Source: Gammaproteobacteria bacterium (GTDB lineage: Bacteria > Pseudomonadota > Gammaproteobacteria > Thiohalospirales > Thiohalospiraceae). From it: a stretch of 42,394 bases of DNA. The position numbers and the translations under genes are program-made. The DNA lies in contig WFXP01000057.1 of assembly GCA_015490535.1 (NCBI GenBank), forward strand, positions 1 to 42,394, read 5' to 3'. This document shows positions 366-42,394 of this stretch, one piece after another (within the stretch, counting starts at the first letter, position 1; every line of letters begins with the position of its first letter). The notes beneath the pieces were generated by a model that made no database searches, had not been told where the DNA came from, and worked only from the letters and a program-made list of their open reading frames with translations.

Positions 366-520
366 AACCCATTCAGCATGGTATTGAAACAGGCCGGCAG
401 CTGTTCAGATCGCCCCTGAAATCCGTCAGTTCAAGGGGAAAAATGGGAGTTTACGAGGGTAAATGACCACGCGGATTCAACGCAGCAATGGCGGATTTCA
501 GGGGTGAGCTGAATAGTTAC
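366..520 (-). repeat. Family A palindromic repeat, copy A1
   Basis: This 155-bp copy belongs to a dispersed repeat also seen at 4203-4318, 7220-7345 and 19782-19934. Its outer ends are inverted copies of AACTATTCAGC (AACCCATTCAGC on the left, GCTGAATAGTT on the right). Internal landmarks shared with the other copies are the TTTCAGGGG-type motif, a block around TTTACGAGGGTAAATGACC, and GGTATTGAAACAGGCCGG. It is inverted relative to A4. No open reading frame in it looks real. The small size, terminal inverted repeats and absence of protein suggest a MITE or REP-like element. The rest of the 115-629 gap shows nothing beyond the antitoxin promoter, two palindromes and a weak promoter near 604. 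Confidence 0.75.
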
Positions 521-4202: not shown

Positions 4203-4318
4203 GTAACTATTCAGATGGTCATTTGCCCTTGTAACCCCCACTTTTTCGCCTTGAACTGACCGATTTCAGGGGCGATCTGAGCAGTTACCGGCCTGTTCCA
4301 TACCATGCTGAATGGTTG
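4203..4318 (+). repeat. Family A palindromic repeat, copy A2 (internally deleted)
   Basis: This 116-bp copy begins GTAACTATTCAG and ends GCTGAATGGTTGC. Compared with A4 it lacks the segment between the terminal ATTCAG and TGGTCATTT, but keeps the TTTCAGGGG motif and the GTTACCGGCCTGTT tail. It lies between the convergent MCE operon and the beta-helix lipoprotein gene, whose stop codon is about 11 bases away. It could act as a bidirectional terminator, although that is not shown. Confidence 0.75.
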
Positions 4319-4328
4319 CGTTTTTTGG

Positions 4329-7013
4329 TCAGTTGTCGATCCTGATCGTGGATTTACCTTCATCCACAAGCTCTTTTTCCTGCACGGAGATCGTGTTATT
4401 GAATAGCACGGTATCCTGCGCATTTTCATTCCCAATATTGATGCCCACGCTGGCCCCAGAGATGGTGTTTTTCTGAATAAGCAAAGAGCGTACAGACCTG
4501 TCCTTTGGCAGCCACCACTCATTGTTAACCGATATCCCCGTTCGGAAATCTATGTCTATTTCATTGCCCAGTATGTTGACAGATTGACCAAGGACTGGCC
4601 CGTAACCTCCTCTTTCGGCACCATACGACAAGGTGATTCCTCCCCGCTGCGTGCTGTCGGATCTCCCTTCGATGGTGTTTCCAAAGATCTCGCTGGCAAA
4701 CACTCCCGAGTAGAATGACTCGTTTCCGGGGGTGCCGGGGTTATCCCTGGTGTACAGTGTCCATACCAGAATGCCCTCCGTGTACTTTATCTTGTTGTAG
4801 GAAATGGTTGAATCCAGGAAATTGGCAAACCAGTTTATCAGCCCCTTTTGCCCCTCAAGGCGGCATCCAGTATGATCAACATCATTGTCCGTAACGTGGA
4901 CCTGCCAGTAAGTTTTGTAAACAACTATTCTGCTCTTTCCAGGCACGGGGATAACATCCCAGGCCGGCGAGACCCGGAACCGGACCCCTTTCCCCAGAAT
5001 GTCTTCGTAACTATCTATGCGGCGTGCCTGGCCCGTCCCGGGGCCATCGACCACAAAAACCCAGTGCCCACGATAGTAGTCCTCCTCTTTGTGAATCAGC
5101 TCATTGGAAGCCGCGCTGACCCAGTCCTCAGCTGCTCCGGAAACATATTGCACTTCAGCAAATCCGGCAATGCTATCCTTGACAAACTGGCCGGTCTGCG
5201 GGTCCCTGCGATAAAGCCCGTCGTTACTATCAAACGAAATTGCCTCGCCATCTCCGCTCTTGTCACCGGAACAGCTTATATCATTCGAAGCAACCAGCAC
5301 CTTCTCGTTGTTGTGCCCGAGGTGCCAGAAAAACCCCGCCCTCCATCCACCGTTGTTCCTGCCATCCACGACATTGTCGATGATGATCGAGCTATCCGAA
5401 CCGCCAACCTCCATCGCTATAGGCCCCTGACCTGTCGTTTTATACCCTCCGGGAGTAAAGCTGTTTCCTTCCACAATCAGATCCTTGATAATGAATTTAA
5501 CCGACTTTCCTCCACCTCCTCCCCAGAAGGCGAGCGCCGTAGAGTGAGCGGCCAGCTGATTCCCGGTTATGGAGAGACGCTCAATCCTCTGTCCCCCGCT
5601 GGCAATCGCGTTGTCCACCTTTTCAAACCTGCAGTTTTCGATTACCACGCCCTTGACAACTCCATTTAGATCCCCGGGAGGGCTGGACGGATGCAGCTTC
5701 ATTCCAATCCTGATGGCGGCAATTCCGTCAGAGTCCCCTTCCGACAGGGGTTTCTCCCTTTCGAAAGTTATGTTCCGAATGGAGTTGCTGCCGGCCAGGG
5801 TGAACAGGGCGCTACCCCCCAAGGTCCATTGAGATCCCTGCACCACCTTCGTCACGTCAGCACCTGCGCCAACCAGATCAACCCCCTCCGGAACCACAAT
5901 TCCATGTTCGTAGTTTTCCCATATCATGTTTACCGGATCGTCCAGTCTCCAGGTTCCGGCTGGCAGATAAACCTCGCCACCTCCCGCCTCTTCAGCCGCT
6001 TTCATGGCCCTGGTTATACACAGGATATCATCGCTGTCATCCGCACCGGAGCAGCCACCAAACTGGGTGATATCGAATCTCTGGCGTGAAAGATCCTCGC
6101 CCACCACCACCAGTCTCTCATCTTTCAACCTGGCCCAGCCATTTCCGTCAAGCGCCAAATCAACGGTATACGATCCCGCAGGCAGATCTTCGGGAAGTTC
6201 AAACTCGACCAGATACTCTCCCTCTCTCCCCTTGGGCTCCATCGCAGGAAAAATGTAGCTCCGTTCATTCTGCGAAAGACGAACGCAGCGTTTAAACCCT
6301 GGACGTACCGCCAGATTCCTGCCGGCAATCCGCACTGTCCTGGAGCTTTCAGCAAGCTTCAGTTCCCCTGGCGAGATCCACATCGGGAACGGGGCGTTCA
6401 CTATTATCGGGAGCGACCAGGAGCCGCTCTTATCCAGGGCCCAGACAGCATAGGTATTTTCTGTCCGTATGGCCTGCGGCAACTCCACGGAAATCACTTC
6501 CTTGCTGCTGTGGCGTACGATCCGTTCCGCCAAGCCCCCCTCCGATTTACTCATGCCCTCGAAAGACGCAGGAGGTGGTTCAACGCTCTTTCCAGACACC
6601 CGCCTGTACACAACCCTCTCTATCTCCTCCAGGCCCTCTCCCGTCAGGTTCAGCAGCGCCCCCCCTCTGGCCGAAAGGGGAGCCTGGTATCCCGCTGTCC
6701 GGTACAGCCTTACCGCGGCAGATGGCTGGACGCTTGACGCTCTCGGCATTTCGAATCCCAGTAATCCTTCAGATACTGATACCTCGCGAACCCGCGATGA
6801 GGACACGCTCCCCCCAAGGCATGCAGAAGCCTCATCTTCCGGCACGGCATCGGCCAAATCCCCCGGCAGCCCCTCCGGATCGTCTGCTTCCTCAAGCCCC
6901 CCTTTGATGCTGTTTTGAGAAACGGTGGAGCTGGAGTTGCAACCGACAATACCTGATCCGACTGCTATTGCTATCGCACCGGCGGCCCATATGATCAAAC
7001 GACGAATATCCAT
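4329..7013 (-). CDS. Large lipoprotein with a right-handed beta-helix (pectate-lyase-like) domain
   Basis: The 894-residue protein starts with a lipoprotein signal; the lipobox GIVGC places the modified cysteine at residue 25. A Ser/Asp/Glu-rich linker follows, then about 250 residues of beta-sandwich-like sequence. From about residue 320 there is a pectate-lyase-superfamily start (FDITQFGGCSGADDSDD, then GGGEVYLPAGTWRL) and repeated N/V/I-rich rungs of a parallel beta-helix up to the C-terminus. Proteins of this type are lyases, epimerases or hydrolases of uronate polysaccharides, or structural surface proteins. As the last gene of the polysaccharide locus it may trim, modify or hold the polymer at the cell surface. 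I cannot point to catalytic residues, so the activity is unknown. ATG 7013 is preceded by AGGTAC on the minus strand, a plausible ribosome-binding site. Confidence 0.75.
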   Translation of the reverse strand: MDIRRLIIWAAGAIAIAVGSGIVGCNSSSTVSQNSIKGGLEEADDPEGLPGDLADAVPEDEASACLGGSVSSSRVREVSVSEGLLGFEMPRASSVQPSAAVRLYRTAGYQAPLSARGGALLNLTGEGLEEIERVVYRRVSGKSVEPPPASFEGMSKSEGGLAERIVRHSSKEVISVELPQAIRTENTYAVWALDKSGSWSLPIIVNAPFPMWISPGELKLAESSRTVRIAGRNLAVRPGFKRCVRLSQNERSYIFPAMEPKGREGEYLVEFELPEDLPAGSYTVDLALDGNGWARLKDERLVVVGEDLSRQRFDITQFGGCSGADDSDDILCITRAMKAAEEAGGGEVYLPAGTWRLDDPVNMIWENYEHGIVVPEGVDLVGAGADVTKVVQGSQWTLGGSALFTLAGSNSIRNITFEREKPLSEGDSDGIAAIRIGMKLHPSSPPGDLNGVVKGVVIENCRFEKVDNAIASGGQRIERLSITGNQLAAHSTALAFWGGGGGKSVKFIIKDLIVEGNSFTPGGYKTTGQGPIAMEVGGSDSSIIIDNVVDGRNNGGWRAGFFWHLGHNNEKVLVASNDISCSGDKSGDGEAISFDSNDGLYRRDPQTGQFVKDSIAGFAEVQYVSGAAEDWVSAASNELIHKEEDYYRGHWVFVVDGPGTGQARRIDSYEDILGKGVRFRVSPAWDVIPVPGKSRIVVYKTYWQVHVTDNDVDHTGCRLEGQKGLINWFANFLDSTISYNKIKYTEGILVWTLYTRDNPGTPGNESFYSGVFASEIFGNTIEGRSDSTQRGGITLSYGAERGGYGPVLGQSVNILGNEIDIDFRTGISVNNEWWLPKDRSVRSLLIQKNTISGASVGINIGNENAQDTVLFNNTISVQEKELVDEGKSTIRIDN

Positions 7014-7219: not shown

Positions 7220-7345
7220 GTAACTATTCAGCTCGCTCCTGAAATCCGCGCGTCAATGCTGCGCTGAAATATGGCCATTTACCCTCGTAAACTCCCGTTT
7301 TTCGTCACGAACCGACGGATTTTTTCAGGGGTGAGCTGAATAGTT
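7220..7345 (+). repeat. Family A palindromic repeat, copy A3 (short form)
   Basis: This 126-bp copy begins GTAACTATTCAGCT and ends AGCTGAATAGTT, so the ends are near-perfect inverted repeats followed inward by CCTGAAATCCG and CGGATTTTTTCAGG. It lacks the roughly 40-bp GGCCTGTTTCAATAC tail of A1 and A4. It overlaps the 3' end of the acetyltransferase gene and provides that gene's last six sense codons and its stop. Confidence 0.8.
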
Positions 7346-7876
7346 GGCCCGAACCTTGATCTTCCTTGCCGGGTTACCCACGTATATTCCGTTCGCCTCC
7401 AAATCAGACAAGGCAACGCTCCCGATTCCGAGCACGGCCCCCTTGTTTACGGTTGTTCCAGGGGAAACCACGGAGCGCGCTGCAAGCCAGGCACCGTCGG
7501 ATATTTTGATCTCGCCCGCCTTGAGGGTGAAAGAGGGACTGTTCCAGTCATGATTACCGGTACAAATATAAACATCCTGTGAGATACAAACATTGTTTCC
7601 TATGGAAACCTCAAAGATGTTGTCTATCCAGCAATTTTCCCCAAACCATACATGGTCCCCCGCCCTTAACTTCCATGGGAACTTGATTCTGGCACGAGGC
7701 TTGACCACAACCCCCTTGCCAATCCTGGCCCCGAAAGCCCGAAGGAGGAGAACGCGCAGATGGGAGCCAGGAATCCAGGTGTTCACGAAAAAAGCGGCGC
7801 AGGCCATCCATGCCATCTCAACCGCCCAGTGACGGCCGCGAGAGTAATCACTGTTGTCGTAGCTAGAGAGATCCAT
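7325..7876 (-). CDS. WcaF-like sugar O-acetyltransferase (left-handed beta-helix)
   Basis: The 183-residue protein resembles colanic-acid WcaF acetyltransferases. It has an N-terminal hydrophobic segment (about residues 20-45), then hexapeptide repeats (IGKGVVV, VWFGENCWI, IGNNVCIS, KGAVLGIGS) forming a left-handed beta-helix, the motif ICTGNHDW with a candidate active-site histidine, and a C-terminal GNPARKIK. It would transfer acetyl from acetyl-CoA to a sugar of the repeat unit in the cytoplasm. The final residues NYSAHP and the TGA come from the end of repeat A3, so the native C-terminus has been replaced or extended. The core ends at about residue 177, so activity is probably retained. 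Confidence 0.85.
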   Translation of the reverse strand: MDLSSYDNSDYSRGRHWAVEMAWMACAAFFVNTWIPGSHLRVLLLRAFGARIGKGVVVKPRARIKFPWKLRAGDHVWFGENCWIDNIFEVSIGNNVCISQDVYICTGNHDWNSPSFTLKAGEIKISDGAWLAARSVVSPGTTVNKGAVLGIGSVALSDLEANGIYVGNPARKIKVRANYSAHP

Positions 7877-10490: not shown

Positions 10491-10735
10491 ATCAAATCAG
10501 GAACCGGTTCAGTCAGAAAGATTGAAGAAAAAATCCGGGCAGCTATCTTGCGGTGAGGCCCGAGGCGTATGCCCCCAACAAGGCACAACGGGAGACACCT
10601 CTTGATCCCGCAGAGAGGCTGTACTACCCGACATGCTTGATATCCGAATCCGGAGCGGCCTTGACGAGGATCGGCCATTTCCCTAAGGCCGCGGCCTCGA
10701 TCCGGAACCCGCAGGATAGTTTGAATAATGTTTTA
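10491..10735. other. Intergenic stretch upstream of the flippase gene
   Basis: About 245 bases lie between the start of wzx and repeat C1. Possible reading frames here have no recognisable content. Local imperfect inverted sequence (for example GGCCGCGGCC near 10688) suggests more repeat debris, but I cannot delimit an element. Confidence 0.35.
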
Positions 10736-11016
10736 TTAACCCGGCAACATAATATGTCGCATTCAGCCGTGCTGTGCACGTCCGGGGCAAGGCGTCGAAA
10801 CGCCGCTGTAGCATTCCTACAGCAAGTTTCGACAACGCGGACCGCAGACGCGCACGGCACGGCCTGTCTTTTTGATATCAATAGGTTAGGAGCCTCAGGC
10901 CTCTCCCCTCCCAGCGTTGCGTACCTTGCCAAGGGAACGACCCTTGCCTGCGGCACGCGCCTTGACAGGGGAGAGGCATGAGGCTCTGAATGCGACATAT
11001 TATGTTTCCGGGTTAA
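10736..11016. repeat. Family C palindromic element, copy C1
   Basis: This 281-bp element is bounded by long inverted repeats: TTAACCCGGCAACATAATAT at the left and the inverse of TTAACCCGGAAACATAATAT at the right, both continuing through GTCGCATTCAG. It is flanked by TA on both sides (10734-10735 and 11017-11018), as for TA-targeting elements of the IS630/mariner type. The interior contains nested hairpins, including a CTGTAG/CTACAG stem, and no credible gene. It shares end sequence with C2 at 26726-27010. Confidence 0.8.
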
Positions 11017-11026
11017 TAGCCTTCAA

Positions 11027-11974: not shown

Positions 11975-12060
11975 AACTCCCCCACTTTATTCAGATACTG
12001 TTTGACCAAGCAGTCCAACATCATATCAGGAACATGCACCAATAAAGATAATTTCTGCTA

Positions 12061-12409
12061 GTACTCTTTCAAGGTAATAAACCAGGATCCAGAGGGACGC
12101 TGAATCCGGATTGGGTCTTCCTCAAATCGTATGGGTGAAATGGTAAATCATCCTTGACAGGCGGAATGCACGCCGGAAGATGGTCGGCAGAAGGGGATTG
12201 GGGAGAGTTTGGGATAGCCGCACCAGTTGCAATCGGCGCAGGTGGTGGATATCCGCCACTCCCCGGTCAGACTGCCCCAATCCCCTTCTGGCTACCGAGT
12301 ATGTGGCGTGCATTCCGCCTGTCAAGGACGGAGCCGCTACGCGATGATTTACCATTTCACCCATACGATTTGAGGAAGACCATCCTAATTTATTACCTTT
12401 AAATAGTAC
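12061..12409 (+). repeat. Family B palindromic element, copy B1
   Basis: This 349-bp element has ends GTACTCTTTCAAGGTAATAAA and the inverse of GTACTATTTAAAGGTAATAAA, flanked by TA on both sides (12059-12060 and 12410-12411). The interior is a large imperfect palindrome: CCTCAAATCGTATGGGTGAA pairs with its inverse near 12355, TCCTTGACAGGCGGAATGCA pairs with TGCATTCCGCCTGTCAAGGA, and the centre lies at GTGGATATCC. One arm carries a short extra CGGAGCCGCTACGCG-type segment. The right edge forms the stop codon of the neighbouring glycosyltransferase gene. Confidence 0.85.
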
Positions 12410-13581
12410 TAGTTTTTTGCAATCTCCTCCTGCAGATAGTCGGCCAGACGCTCTCCATACTCCTGCCAGGTATTACCGGACAGGATGGTCTGATAGGCGT
12501 TTTGCCCCATCCTCCGGCGCTCATCCTGGTTTTCATACAAGTACGTCAGTCTCTCCTTGAGAGCTTCAACATCGCGTATGGGAATGACAAAGCCATTTTT
12601 TCCGTCTTCAACCAAATCTGCCGCGCCAACGTTTTCGGTCACAATTACCGGAAGGGCACAAGCCATAGCCTGGGTCACCACCATGCCGAATCCATCAGAC
12701 AGCGAGTTGAGAACAAACACGCTCCCTTGCTGATAAAGATATTTCAGCCTGTTCTGGGGATAGGTGCCCTTGAACTGGATATTTTCCGATCTGTTCTCTT
12801 CAAAAAATGTCTTAAGCGGTGAGTCCTGATATCCACCTCCAATAAGCCACAACTCCGAGTCTCTGATACCGAGCTCACGAAACGCCTTGATCAGGTAATG
12901 AACCCCTTTTCCCGGCCTCAGCCCCCCACACTGGATCACCCTGAAGGTATCATCTTTTTTTTCGCCAGGCTCGAACTGGTCAAGATTTACTCCGCACCGA
13001 TTGACAAAAATCTTTTTTTCATCTATCCCGTTTTCAACCATGGTCCGCCTGGCGTAGCTGCTCAAAACCATTATTCTGTCAGCCACCTCAAACTCCTCCT
13101 GCTCTCTATCGATAACCCATTGGGGAGGTTCCTGCGTAAAACCCCTAAAACCCCATAGTTCATCCTCCTCCCTCTGCAGTTGGCGCTCATACCTCTGGTG
13201 CGAACTCCCATGGTCCACTACGGTCAGCTGGCCCTTCTCCTTGGCCTGGTACAGGGCCTCCAGAGCGAACGAAGACAGACCGATAAACACATCCGACTGG
13301 TCTGGAATCTTATCTGCCACCTTGCGGGTAAATGCCCTGTGTGCACTGGAACTCAGGCGATCCCTCCAGCTTTTGTTGACAACCGGCGCCATCCGGTTCA
13401 CCGCCCTCATCCTTATGCCGCTACCCAAAAGGGAGATCACCTTGTCGTCCGGGATACCCCACTCTCTGGTTTTGAAGCGCGGATAGTCATTTATAAGTTT
13501 GTCCAACACGCCTATGCGATAAAGCTCTCTGGCTTGATCGAACACCCAAAAACGCCCGCTGCACGACGTTGTTACCTTCAT
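12409..13581 (-). CDS. Glycosyltransferase family 4 (GT-B) protein
   Basis: The 390-residue protein has a GT-B layout. The donor-binding half shows FRVIQCGGLRPGKGVHYLIK near the middle and NSLSDGFGMVVTQAMACALP with VIVTENVGA toward the end, which carries the E-x7-E-like region of GT4 enzymes. The N-terminal acceptor half begins at MKVTTSCSGRFWVFD. It would add one sugar to the lipid-linked repeat unit at the cytoplasmic membrane; donor and acceptor are unknown. The stop TAG (12409-12411) is made of the flanking TA and the first base of element B1, so the C-terminus (EEIAKN) may have been set by that insertion. Confidence 0.87.
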   Translation of the reverse strand: MKVTTSCSGRFWVFDQARELYRIGVLDKLINDYPRFKTREWGIPDDKVISLLGSGIRMRAVNRMAPVVNKSWRDRLSSSAHRAFTRKVADKIPDQSDVFIGLSSFALEALYQAKEKGQLTVVDHGSSHQRYERQLQREEDELWGFRGFTQEPPQWVIDREQEEFEVADRIMVLSSYARRTMVENGIDEKKIFVNRCGVNLDQFEPGEKKDDTFRVIQCGGLRPGKGVHYLIKAFRELGIRDSELWLIGGGYQDSPLKTFFEENRSENIQFKGTYPQNRLKYLYQQGSVFVLNSLSDGFGMVVTQAMACALPVIVTENVGAADLVEDGKNGFVIPIRDVEALKERLTYLYENQDERRRMGQNAYQTILSGNTWQEYGERLADYLQEEIAKN

Positions 13582-18960: not shown

Positions 18961-19677
18961 TCACTTGATTGACACGGAAAAAAAATTTTGCGTTAGAACG
19001 CTTTCCCACGCTCCGGTTTCCGCAAAAACCTCAATTTGACGGCCAAGCTTGAAGAGTCGCCATAAGGATCCCCGCAGTACCCCTTTTATCCCTCTGGCCA
19101 CGGGTGGATCGTCAAAACTCGCCGTGGAGCAAAACCCGCCTAGCAGGGCCAGTTGCTGCATGGAGGAAGGGGTATATGCCTGCTGGTGGGTATAGTCCCC
19201 GTACCTGATGCGCCCATGGTACGGAGAGATCCCGTTCGGTTGATGGCTCAGCCACTTCCCCCCTTTATCCAGTACTCTGTATATCTCGCCAACCAGGGCC
19301 AGCAGTTCTGTCTTGTCAAAGTGCTCAATAACGTCCAGTGTCACCACCATGGAAAGCGATTCAGGATCCTGCTGCCTGAGATAGGCGAGAAGATCCTGAC
19401 ACGACACCTTCAATTCTCCCAGCTCCCTGGCAGCCTGCACCTGCTCCGGCGATACGTCAACACCCTCTATGTGTGAGTAGCCAAACTCTCTGGCCACCTT
19501 TATCAGTGCGCCATGCCCACATCCAAGATCGCATATCCTGGCTGCCCTGTCTTTCGGGAAGAATCTGGAGACTATCATGGCCAGATGGGGACGACGCCTC
19601 TCCAGCGTGGTTTGATCACAAGAGGCTGATCCGGTGGTGATATAAGATTCATATATTTTGGATCTGTAATCAGTCAT
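18961..19677 (-). CDS. Class I SAM-dependent methyltransferase
   Basis: The 238-residue protein has motif I ARICDLGCGHGALIKVA (about residues 46-62), HIEGVDVSPEQV with the acidic ribose-binding residue, and MVVTLDVIEHFDKTELLALV, followed by DKGGKWLSHQPNG. This matches class I methyltransferases of the UbiE/Methyltransf_11/23 type. In a glycan locus it probably methylates a sugar or a lipid-linked sugar. It is the first gene after repeat A4, which separates it by about 240 bases from the next upstream glycosyltransferase gene, so it may start a separate transcription unit. No promoter is obvious. Confidence 0.82.
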   Translation of the reverse strand: MTDYRSKIYESYITTGSASCDQTTLERRRPHLAMIVSRFFPKDRAARICDLGCGHGALIKVAREFGYSHIEGVDVSPEQVQAARELGELKVSCQDLLAYLRQQDPESLSMVVTLDVIEHFDKTELLALVGEIYRVLDKGGKWLSHQPNGISPYHGRIRYGDYTHQQAYTPSSMQQLALLGGFCSTASFDDPPVARGIKGVLRGSLWRLFKLGRQIEVFAETGAWESVLTQNFFSVSIK

Positions 19678-19781
19678 TCGTTATCGCTTCTTTCAGCGTC
19701 CTGTAAGGCACGCGTGCAAAAACACCTCTCGGTTGTGCCAGCACTCGTTTAAGGCAAGGGATCATGGCTCAACCTCCCTTT

Positions 19782-19934
19782 GTAACCATTCAGCTCATCC
19801 CTGAAATCCGCCATTTCCGCGTTGCAAAATGGTCATTCACCTTCGTAAACTCCCATTTTTTACCTTGAACTGACCAATTTCAGGGGTGATCTGAACAGTT
19901 ACCGGCCTGTTTCAATACTATGCTGAATAGTTAC
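19782..19934 (+). repeat. Family A palindromic repeat, copy A4 (full form)
   Basis: This 153-bp copy begins GTAACCATTCAGCTCATCCC and ends with GCTGAATAGTTAC, with the internal blocks CCTGAAATCCG, GTAAACTCCCATTTTT, TTTCAGGGGTGATCTGAACAG and GGCCTGTTTCAATAC. It is the mirror image of A1 at about the same length. Its right end lies inside the 3' end of the glycosyltransferase gene and encodes that protein's last residues and stop. Confidence 0.8.
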
Positions 19935-20808
19935 GTCCCTTTTTAGTTTCATATATTTTTGCGTCTATCAGAAATCTGAACCAAAACCGCTGCAGCACAT
20001 GAAAAATCAGGCCCTCCCTTCCATCCAGAAATCCCATGCGCAAGATATATCCATACACAAAAAAGAGAAAGGGGCGGATGAACAGAGGAAACCTTTGATA
20101 TACCTTTGTCCTCAAAAAGCGCCTCCTCTGTATTGCATTGCCGAACAGTCTGGGTTCGACCTGTTTTCCCAGCTCCTCTTCACTCCTGTCCATCAGAATT
20201 TCGGCTGCTTCTGCTGCCGCCCATCTGTTATGCCGCTCCGTCCATTCAGAAAGATTGGAGGTAATGATGTCTATATAGTCATGCTCTGTTTTTCCAACTT
20301 TTCCGGATTTTACCCTGAAATGTTGATCATACAATCTATCTTCACAATAGCCCTGTCCATTTCGTACCATTCTAAGGTGGTATGCAGGATACTGGCCACC
20401 ATGCCTGATCCAGCGGCCAAGAAAATAGGTGCGTTTGCGGAACATGTAGCCATCAACTTTTTTGTCATCCGTTTGCACCAGACGATTCAGCTCTGCCACA
20501 ATCTCCGGAGTAAGCCTCTCATCAGCATCCAGGCTCACAATCCATTCCGATCTCGATCCGGCATTTGCAAAGGCCCAGTTTCTCTGCTTGGCATAGTTCT
20601 CAAACGGATGCTCAAGTATTCGCGCTCCATAGTCCCTGGCTATCTCCAGTGTGCGGTCGATACTGCCCGAATCAACAACCAGGATCTCACAATCCAGTCC
20701 TTTCAGACTATCCAGGCAATCGGGCAGATTGCTCTCCTCGTTCAGCGTCAGCACAATGACAAGAATGGGTGCCGCCGACCCCGTTTCCTTAATATCTGTT
20801 TTCATCAC
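19918..20808 (-). CDS. Glycosyltransferase family 2, WaaE/KdtX-like
   Basis: The 296-residue GT2 has LTLNEESNLPDCLDSL, EILVVDSGSIDRTLEIA, RNWAFANAGSRSEWIVSLDADER (DxD) and a basic hydrophobic C-terminus (FPLFIRPFLFFVYGYILRMG). The pattern matches the WaaE/KdtX family that acts on lipopolysaccharide core or related glycans at the inner membrane face. Sugar specificity is unknown. The last four residues NYSA and the TAG come from repeat A4, as with the acetyltransferase at repeat A3, so the natural C-terminus was probably replaced. It overlaps the upstream GT4 gene by four bases. Confidence 0.86.
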   Translation of the reverse strand: MMKTDIKETGSAAPILVIVLTLNEESNLPDCLDSLKGLDCEILVVDSGSIDRTLEIARDYGARILEHPFENYAKQRNWAFANAGSRSEWIVSLDADERLTPEIVAELNRLVQTDDKKVDGYMFRKRTYFLGRWIRHGGQYPAYHLRMVRNGQGYCEDRLYDQHFRVKSGKVGKTEHDYIDIITSNLSEWTERHNRWAAAEAAEILMDRSEEELGKQVEPRLFGNAIQRRRFLRTKVYQRFPLFIRPFLFFVYGYILRMGFLDGREGLIFHVLQRFWFRFLIDAKIYETKKGRNYSA

Positions 20809-25941: not shown

Positions 25942-26138
25942 CCCATCCTCTTCAGGCAAGCTACCGCCCTACCATGTCATGGACATAGTATGGCCGAACC
26001 GTCACATTCACATCCACGCCACCTTGCCAAAGGCATTGCCATGGCACTCTTGCTCCTTGGCTTCAGATCTACCCCAGTAGTCAGTACGAGAGCTACCTAC
26101 TGTCATGCGTACCCTGCCCGCACCGACTCCAGGATCTA

Positions 26139-26334
26139 GGGCTCTTTCAAGGTAATAAATCAGGATTCAGTTGGCCTGTCAGCATTCAGGGCAAGGCGCC
26201 CCTCGCAGGGAATGGCCGTCGCCCTTTGCAAGAGGGGCAACGCGGCCATGGACGCTGACAGACCAACCTTTCTTCGGGCGTCCCTGGGGTGTTTCGCCGC
26301 GCTGAATCATAATTTATTACCTTGAAAGAGTACT
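26139..26334. repeat. Family B-ended palindromic element, copy B2 (short interior)
   Basis: This 196-bp element has ends GGGCTCTTTCAAGGTAATAA on the left and the inverse of AGTACTCTTTCAAGGTAATA on the right. TCAGGATTCAG is followed inside by its approximate inverse CTGAATCATAA. The interior is unlike B1 and carries the common core GGGCAAGGCG (26189) and GGCAACGCGG (26237). It forms part of the non-coding block upstream of the polysaccharide locus. Confidence 0.75.
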
Positions 26335-26335
26335 G

Positions 26336-27460
26336 GTACTCTTTCCCGACTGTAGATACTCGCTGAAAATCAACTGCCACCAAGCGGAAACACCGAAGGG
26401 GCCACCGGTCGGTTCCAAAACAGCTCGTAACTACCCACCAACCCACTGAGATCTGCCGTTCCATGTAGAAGGAACGTCACATGCCCGGCAACAAGTCCCA
26501 AGTTATTCCCATGAGCCGGCGAATTCCAAAGGATTTGCGAGCAATCATCCAAATTTTCCCGCTGAGCAGCTAAAGTTATTTTATGCGTGGTCTCCCGCTT
26601 GGCTGCAAACAGGTTTTTTGCGCGCGATTCCCTTACCGCGACAGGAGCCACTTGCCCTGTTTTCCCTATCTGCCCGCACAAAAATCTGGAGACAGACCTT
26701 TTGTGGCTACTAAATCTTTATAGTGTCAATCCAGCAACAATATACGTCATATTCAGCCGTCGCGCGCCGGTCTGCTGAAAGGCGGCAAAGCGCCGCTGGA
26801 GCCCCCTTCCCGGCAGGTTTTTGCCAATGCCGCCAGCAGACCGGCACACGACGGGCCTCTCTCCCGAAAAACAGACTGTCGGGGGTCAGGAACGGGCTTC
26901 CCGGCGCCCCGGCCTTTTGCCAATGGAGCGCAACCATCACCCGCAAGCCGCGCCCCGTTCCAACCCGCTCCTGAAACCCTGAATACGTTAGTATATTGTT
27001 GCCGGGTTAACAATAACCCATGATTTCCAGCACTTGGATCCTCCAATCCGGCGAGAAATCCGCCACACCCCGGTCCCTCTCAAAACTCCCCATCATTGAC
27101 CAGGGCCAACCAGATACCGGCCTTATCCGCGGCCCAGGTTCCTGCCACCCGCATCATCCAAGTGATATTGCATGGAAGCATGGCAAAAACCATTCCTACT
27201 ACACGCCGGACAGGCGTTCTCTTAACGGACTGGTTGGCAATCTTTAATGATACTGCAGCTTGCAACAAAATACTAACAATATGGACAAGCCATTCGACGC
27301 CGTGTTGTTGTAAACTCACCTGCAAGCAGGATTTTGGTTACCCCTCAACCAAGCATACCACCCTGTGCAGTTGCATCTACGCCAACATATGGCGCCAATT
27401 CAACATCCCCTGCGGGCAAATCCCTCTAACCTGCTTGAAAAGCAATCAATGAAAGAGTAC
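26336..27460. other. Gene-poor segment bracketed by GTACTCTTTC inverted ends
   Basis: This segment of about 1.1 kb starts with GTACTCTTTC directly after element B2 and ends with its exact inverse GAAAGAGTAC, so it has the same 10-bp end as family B. It contains copy C2 at 26726-27010. The remaining sequence has several short open frames on both strands, but none resembles a protein family or has a convincing start. It may be a degraded element or eroded former genes. With the flanking repeats it fills the gap of about 1.5 kb between the polysaccharide locus and gspN. Confidence 0.45.
26726..27010. repeat. Family C palindromic element, copy C2
   Basis: This 285-bp copy has left end TCAATCCAGCAACAATATAC (degenerate) and right end the inverse of TTAACCCGGCAACAATATAC, both continuing to an ATTCAG-like block. 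The ends match C1 at 10736-11016. The interior differs from C1 but is again a large hairpin, with CCGGTCTGCTGAAAGGCGGC pairing with GCCGCCAGCAGACCGG. No gene is present. Confidence 0.75.
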
Positions 27461-34212: not shown

Positions 34213-34228
34213 CAGCGCTCCCCTCCCA

Positions 34229-34526
34229 GTACTCTTTCAAGGTGATAAGCCAGGACAGTCTTCCTCAAATCGTGTGGGTAAAATGGTAAATCATCCTTGA
34301 CAGGCGGAATGCACGCCGGAAGATGGTCGGCAGAAGGGGATTGGGGAGACTTTGGGATAGCCGAACCACTTGCGATTTGCGCATCTGGCGGATATCCGCC
34401 ACTCCCCGGCCCAAACCGCCCCAATCCCCTCCTGGTTACCGAGTATGTGGCGTGCATTCTGCCTGTCAAGGACGGAGCCGCTACGCGGTGATTTACCATT
34501 TTACCCACACGATTTGAGGAAGGCCC
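34229..34526 (+). repeat. Family B palindromic element, copy B3, between gspE and gspF
   Basis: The left end GTACTCTTTCAAGGTGATAA lies 17 bases upstream of the gspF ATG. The interior matches B1 closely in the same orientation, with the TCCTTGACAGGCGGAATGCA arm, the GTGGCGTGCATTCTGCC return arm and the extra CGGAGCCGCTACGCG segment near 34472. The right end after GATTTGAGGAAGG is not a recognisable B end and runs into a second core-like sequence at 34528-34625. A one-base length difference from B1 near 34410 breaks the frame that is open in B1, so the element is not protein-coding. Confidence 0.8.
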
Positions 34527-34527
34527 C

Positions 34528-34625
34528 ATCAGGAATCAGCGTCCCTGTGGTGTTGCGCGGCAAGGCGCAGCGCGCGGGCGATGGTTGCTCCCTTGTCAAG
34601 CACTGCAACGCCGCAGCGGGACACC
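34528..34625. repeat. Core-type palindromic repeat fragment after B3
   Basis: ATCAGGAATCAGCGTCC is followed by GGCAAGGCG (34559) and GCAACGCCGC (34605), with a GTGTCC/GGACAC-like outer pairing. The order of motifs matches the interior of B2 at 26139-26334 and of D at 39419-39588, while its ends are unclear. It ends just before the gspE stop codon at 34633. Confidence 0.5.
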
Positions 34626-41988: not shown

Positions 41989-42394
41989 GGGAAAAATGCC
42001 CGATACGCCGCCTGGGTGCTGGGGGCTGGTACTCTATTCAAGGCAATAAATCGGGAGGCTCCTCCTCAAATCGTGTGGGTGAAATGGTAAATCACCGCGT
42101 AGCGGCTCCGTCCTTGACAGGCAGAATGCACGCCACATAATCGGGAACCAGAAGGGGATTGGGGCCGTCTGGCCGGGGAGTGGCGGATATCCACCACCTG
42201 CGCCAATTGCAAGCGGTCCGGCAATCCCAAAGTCTCCCCAATCCCCTTCTGCCGACCAGTTTCCGGCGTGCATTCTGCCTGTCAAGGATGATTTACCATT
42301 TCGCCCACATGATTTGAGGAGGAGCCTCCCGATTTATTGCCTTGAATAGAGTACCAGCCCCCAGCACCCAGGCGGCGTATCGGGCATTTTTCCC
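41989..42394. repeat. Large terminal inverted repeat containing element B4
   Basis: The 40 bases at 41989-42028 are the exact reverse complement of the 40 bases at 42355-42394, the last bases of the window. Between them lies family B element B4, so the whole 406-bp stretch is one palindrome with a perfect outer arm. Other family B copies do not have such paired flanks. It may be a genuine inverted duplication or a fold-back assembly artefact at a contig end. Confidence 0.85.
42029..42354 (-). repeat. Family B palindromic element, copy B4
   Basis: This 326-bp element has ends GTACTCTATTCAAGGCAATA and its exact inverse. The interior is the family B palindrome in the opposite orientation to B1 and B3: the extra CGCGTAGCGGCTCCG segment is near the left arm here and near the right arm there. 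The outer arms are perfect for the first 45 or so bases (through GGAGGCTCC), then mismatches appear. It has no supported gene. Confidence 0.85.

Follow-up and report, generated by a model that had tools for sequence, protein, structure and literature searches.

Based on our data we propose that the last residues of a family 2 glycosyltransferase (GT2) were supplied by a mobile element. The gene lies in a window of 42,394 nucleotides from a gammaproteobacterial genome, and we consider it very likely that copy A4 of a repeat termed family A, a MITE of the ISBst12 group (IS66 family), inserted at its end, that the added tail is tolerated, that the recurrence of the tail NYSA stems from the terminal repeat of the element, and that the positions of the copies result from selection together with an A/T target. 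A4 would have transposed into the junction between the last codon and the stop of GT2, where the 8-bp staggered insertion would have left the Lys-Lys-Gly codons at the gene end intact, and four residues and TAG from the transposon end GTAACTATTCAGCATAG would have taken the place of the native TGA; the tail would be tolerated because the conserved fold stops a few residues earlier. The features of the window are collected in Table 1.

Table 1. Family A copies and the genes they touch in the window
Feature	Position	Strand	Remarks
MITE family A copy A4, long form, 153-bp	19782..19934		ends GTAAC...GTTAC; ~92% identical to many full-length own-genome copies
Left 8-bp target-site duplication copy, CTCCCTTT	19774..19781		7/8 match to 19935-19942
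Right 8-bp target-site duplication copy, GTCCCTTT	19935..19942		7/8 match to 19774..19781
GT2 gene, 296 aa	19918..20808	-	PF00535, E 1.9e-20; C-terminus element-derived
Last GT2 codons, element-supplied	19918..19935	-	cGT-AAC-TAT-TCA-GCA-TAG = (R)NYSA*, minus-strand reading
Family A copy A3, short form, diverged	7220..7347		gives NYSAHP TGA to the acetyltransferase gene
Hexapeptide acetyltransferase gene	7325..7876	-	PF00132; ends in element-encoded NYSAHP
Family A copy A2, degraded	4203..4319		right end 9 bp past the stop (4329) of a minus-strand 894-aa gene, 4329-7013
Family A copy A1	366..520		R-type end degraded, L-type end intact

On the minus strand the 3' end of GT2 reads gaa act aaa aag gga cGT AAC TAT TCA GCA TAG (...ETKKGRNYSA*), and A4 starts at the G of cGT (window position 19934), so that from the second base of the Arg codon onwards the sequence is that of A4. 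An earlier, sequence-only reading of this DNA, in which GT2 ends in element-encoded NYSA followed by TAG, is borne out by this boundary. A4 is oriented with its L-type end at 19782 and its R-type end (GTAACTATTCAGCATRGTATTGAAAC) on the gene side, and it is an insertion flanked by an 8-bp target duplication, which matches at 7/8 rather than 8/8 positions. Depending on the duplication copy retained, the empty site joins as ...AAA AAG GGA CGT TGA (KKGR*) or ...GGA GGT TGA (KKGG*), and because the flanks rejoined in this way read KKGR* or KKGG*, the insertion amounts to four additional residues on GT2. A search of the genus for an orthologous empty GT2 site yielded none, the best matches being ~32% identical with no close orthologue among them.

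The closest GT2 homologue found (L314, 58% identical) stops at aligned residue 290, where the element begins and 6 residues short of the GT2 end. The remaining homologues are 3 to 25 residues longer and their tails are unrelated; as the C-terminus is variable among homologues, tolerance of NYSA fits. Judging from these alignments the four added residues sit past the conserved core, in agreement with the earlier suggestion that the tail is tolerated as short and benign, and we infer that it is neutral for GT2. Some homologues carry 16-25 extra C-terminal residues, and there is a slight chance that the ancestral GT2 was somewhat longer than the KKGR form. On the other side of A4, the duplication copy distal to GT2 completes a GGAGG stretch, resembling a ribosome-binding site, upstream of the next ATG. 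A 31-codon ORF (MIPCLKRVLAQPRGVFARVPYRTLKEAITND) is found there on the minus strand at 19670-19770, between the element and a methyltransferase gene whose start it overlaps, and its GGAGG stretch partly overlaps the target duplication.

Family A is a MITE: it is short, non-coding and present in high copy number, with terminal inverted repeats and a target duplication of fixed length. It occurs as a 153-bp form and as a 121-bp form without 32 bases at the R end, and copies carry the 13-bp terminal inverted repeat GTAACTATTCAGC at each end. Searching our own genome (G000, 2.1 Mb) gave 93 L-type and 45 R-type end matches and 0 with reversed control patterns, and the sister genome G003 gave 239 L-end matches; the surroundings were examined for ~2.5 kb on each side in 74 own-genome and 60 sister-genome regions. 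At k=8, 28 of the 41 two-ended own-genome copies have flanks matching at ≥7/8 positions, and the other lengths tested on the same 41 copies (4-7 and 9-11) gave 0-1 matches. The family is found in 7/7 other genomes of the genus and also in two genomes of other families (G020 being rich in copies), and the public records with an exact L end are mostly metagenome assemblies of uncultured Gammaproteobacteria. Within the window, the flanks of A3 showed no detectable target duplication, and A2 is a third copy near a gene 3' end.

That the repeat is an immobile, fixed RNA hairpin at the 3' end of these genes, acting as a terminator or mRNA stabiliser, is very improbable. The transcript strand does fold strongly (-65 kcal/mol, z = -8.4), but such a fold follows from the inverted repeats, and the target duplications, the ~90 copies in many contexts and both orientations and the insertion within another repeat family all speak for movement. 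The repeat may still influence the mRNA after insertion.

The other repeat family, B, is MITE-like, ~300-350 bp long with long inverted repeats, and is represented in the window at 12058-12413, 34226-34546 and 42037-42346, with relatives at 26136-26337; 13 of the 38 G000 family A copies with clean duplications sit in B-like sequence. The window also holds inverted-repeat pairs with TTAACCCGGCAACA-like sequence ~220-245 bp apart (10734-10766 with 10986-11018, and 26721-26745 with 26991-27015), and these may represent a third family of small elements.

IS66 elements feature GTAA ends and 8-bp duplications (PMC11946415), and ISDge4, a member of the ISBst12 group, is bounded by GTGACTACTCAGCA and GTAACTGCTCAGCA and has an 8-bp repeat (PMC12898284). 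As family A ends start with GTAA and are accompanied by 8-bp direct repeats, its assignment as a MITE of the ISBst12 group is well supported at the level of sequence. The PF03050 (IS66 transposase) profile found no match in G000, an assembly that is 92% complete in 171 contigs and fragmented at family A repeats, and a search of the same genome for an autonomous related copy found none. A MITE need not share its genome with the transposase, although one active in recent times would be expected to. IS66 relics consisting of a transposase fragment with GTAACTATTCAGC at one end are present in the sister genomes G002 and G003 (L137, L138). In G273 an 84% identical transposase sits in an element of 1727 bp bounded by GTAACCATTCAGC / GTAACTATTCAGC, and in G231 one that is 51% identical belongs to an element of 1722 bp with a perfect 8-bp AATTTTTT duplication; these two full-length IS copies of ~1.72 kb in other genomes (L338, L339) share the family A ends. 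It is reasonable to assume that an IS66 transposase was the enzyme that mobilised family A. The gene that interrupts the relic L138 (1750-2700) looks by eye like one for a REP-associated tyrosine transposase and is itself flanked by CACACATGGGGTCAGGTCTTGT-like repeats.

By phase, a gene entering any family A end would meet xxG-TAA (an immediate stop), xGT-AAC-TAT-TCA-GC... (the NYSA tail) or GTA-ACT-ATT... (a longer tail). Fourteen genes of the two genomes end inside a copy, 13 of them from a codon-usage caller and the other being the acetyltransferase gene, which the caller missed; 8 run into the immediate TAA, 5 into NYSA and 1 into the third phase. Compared with one third each, the chi-square p is 0.07 overall and p=0.52 for the NYSA phase, so that a preference for the NYSA frame (5/14), which the sequence-only reading had suggested testing by a survey of insertion frames against chance, is not supported in the two genomes. 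The tail recurs at different genes because the 13-bp terminal repeat sits at both ends of every copy. In the acetyltransferase gene, whose homologues align to query residues 174-176, immediately ahead of NYSAHP, the gene-side end (7347) is ...GCCAACTATTCAGCTCACCCCTGA, laid out like the right end of the short form. The two genes had been taken to share the same end of family A in the same frame and to differ in their stops. The phase is indeed that of NYSA at both and derives from the 13-bp repeat, but GT2 meets the long form at its R-type end and the 13-bp repeat is all that the two ends have in common. Nor is TAG peculiar to GT2: in both genomes pooled, GCA of R-type ends is followed by TGG in 47 and by TAG in 40, and as both are common, an identical stop at the two genes was never expected. 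At another locus (L166, around 4031) a predicted 669-aa protein ends in CNYSGNYSGNYSASYETSR, as if in tandem in-frame family A ends.

It is hardly credible that NYSA is a functional C-terminal peptide, domesticated and maintained by selection. Although such tails occur in at least five genes of two genomes, their frame is at chance, the peptide is what the 13-bp transposon end necessarily encodes in this phase, the host genes are unrelated, and what comes after NYSA varies (a stop, HP, others).

To place insertions relative to genes we used 90 copies with clean duplications (38 from G000 and 52 from G003, the latter exact-matching, young copies only), rebuilt the empty sites, called genes with an in-house codon-usage caller and compared the result with random positions. 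Only 3/90 insertions lie inside genes away from the 3' ends, as against ~69 expected at random over the genome, and family A thus strongly avoids gene interiors. An initial figure of ~18/46 copies near stops dropped after we turned to empty sites with a proper null. Between -24 and +15 bp of a stop, a window that was partly a post-hoc choice, 25/90 insertions were found compared with 18.4 expected in the same intergenic space (21/1000 shuffles reach 25) and 15.3 in any nearby intergenic space (5/1000 shuffles); the excess is clear in G000, and G003 alone (12 vs 9.7 or 7.8 expected) is not significant. In the wider window of -40..+15, fixed before G003 was seen, there are ~27 events vs 21. The interval of 0-7 bp beyond the stop holds 12 events vs 2.5 expected (8/38 copies in G000, 3/52 in G003); some convergent sites were scored once for each gene, and some sites are located in a different repeat family. 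Taken together, copies are slightly over-represented immediately after stop codons, chiefly in G000, and a preference for gene 3' ends is weakly supported.

Copies are inserted at a symmetric target, (A/T)2-N8-(A/T)2, in 16/38 cases in G000 (p = 3e-11) and 33/52 in G003 (p = 9e-26), compared with 5% and 7% of random intergenic sites, and weaker A/T runs are seen 5-7 bases outside the 8-bp duplication. In the literature searched, neither this motif with its outer A/T patches in the ISBst12 group nor IS66-derived MITEs carrying it have been described.

Whether family A truly targets the 3' ends of genes, with transcription terminators or stop-codon sequences as possible cues and the supply of a stop as a side effect, has to be weighed against these data, and we consider it unlikely. 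The excess at 0-7 bp is in its favour; an A/T target matrix trained on sites far from stops fails to account for it. The bias is nonetheless weak in G003, the -40..+15 excess is slight, several of the sites are themselves inside a different repeat family, and clean insertions that replace the stop (-24..-9) show no excess, with 5 vs 6.4 expected and, deeper in the gene, 0 vs 6.5. A preference for replacing the stop is thereby rejected and, since such insertions are at or below chance, the class that contains the GT2 case is not enriched. The preference for gene 3' ends claimed in the sequence-only reading therefore survives only as the weak excess just past stops and does not extend to the overwriting of stops. 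A still bolder idea, which strikes us as quite improbable, is that ISBst12-type MITEs are biased to the few bases past stop codons, either by way of the 8-bp target with its A/T flanks or by some local property of the DNA or of transcription, and that the terminal GTAA is a near-harmless landing device; if so, genes entering GTAA in one frame would stop at once and those entering in another would gain a tail of 4-7 residues. Under the explanation we prefer, insertion by an ISBst12-group MITE followed by tolerance, genomic position would be set mainly by selection against gene disruption and by the preference for A/T-flanked targets. Judging from the ~90 copies surveyed in the two genomes, landing at a gene end happens now and then by accident and is tolerated; family A is not built for it.

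The Correia/NEMIS, RUP and RPE MITEs belong to transposase lineages other than that of family A. They resemble it in their length of 100-200 bp, inverted repeats, strong transcript hairpin and high copy number, and RPE differs in being often in frame inside genes (PMC2229807). ISDge4 and the ISBst12 group share with family A the GTAACTGCTCAGCA-like terminal repeats and the 8-bp direct repeat, but they are autonomous with a single-ORF transposase, whereas family A encodes no protein (PMC12898284). C-termini of four residues supplied by a MITE are already known from near-identical cases. Delihas (2007) reported an ABC-transporter ATPase that is four residues longer (ERMG) owing to a 16-nt overlap with RU-2 (PMC2759123). 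This RU-2/YPAL element at ECA4072 of Erwinia carotovora, like A4 at GT2, is a small mobile repeat adding 4 residues past a conserved domain, and differs in repeat family, host and the tail itself (PMC2759123). At the amidase ECA3499 of the same species, RU-1/ERIC likewise removed the native stop and supplied the C-terminus, yet there the tail is of 35 residues and is read through the repeat's own ORF (PMC2759123). The GT2 case accordingly brings no new mechanism. It ties a previously unassigned repeat family, found in uncultured Gammaproteobacteria of marine origin, to the ISBst12 group of IS66 and comes with a target motif that is replicated. It also adds to the published examples a quantified one of MITEs editing protein C-termini, in which the tail is set by the transposon end and the frame does not depart from chance.
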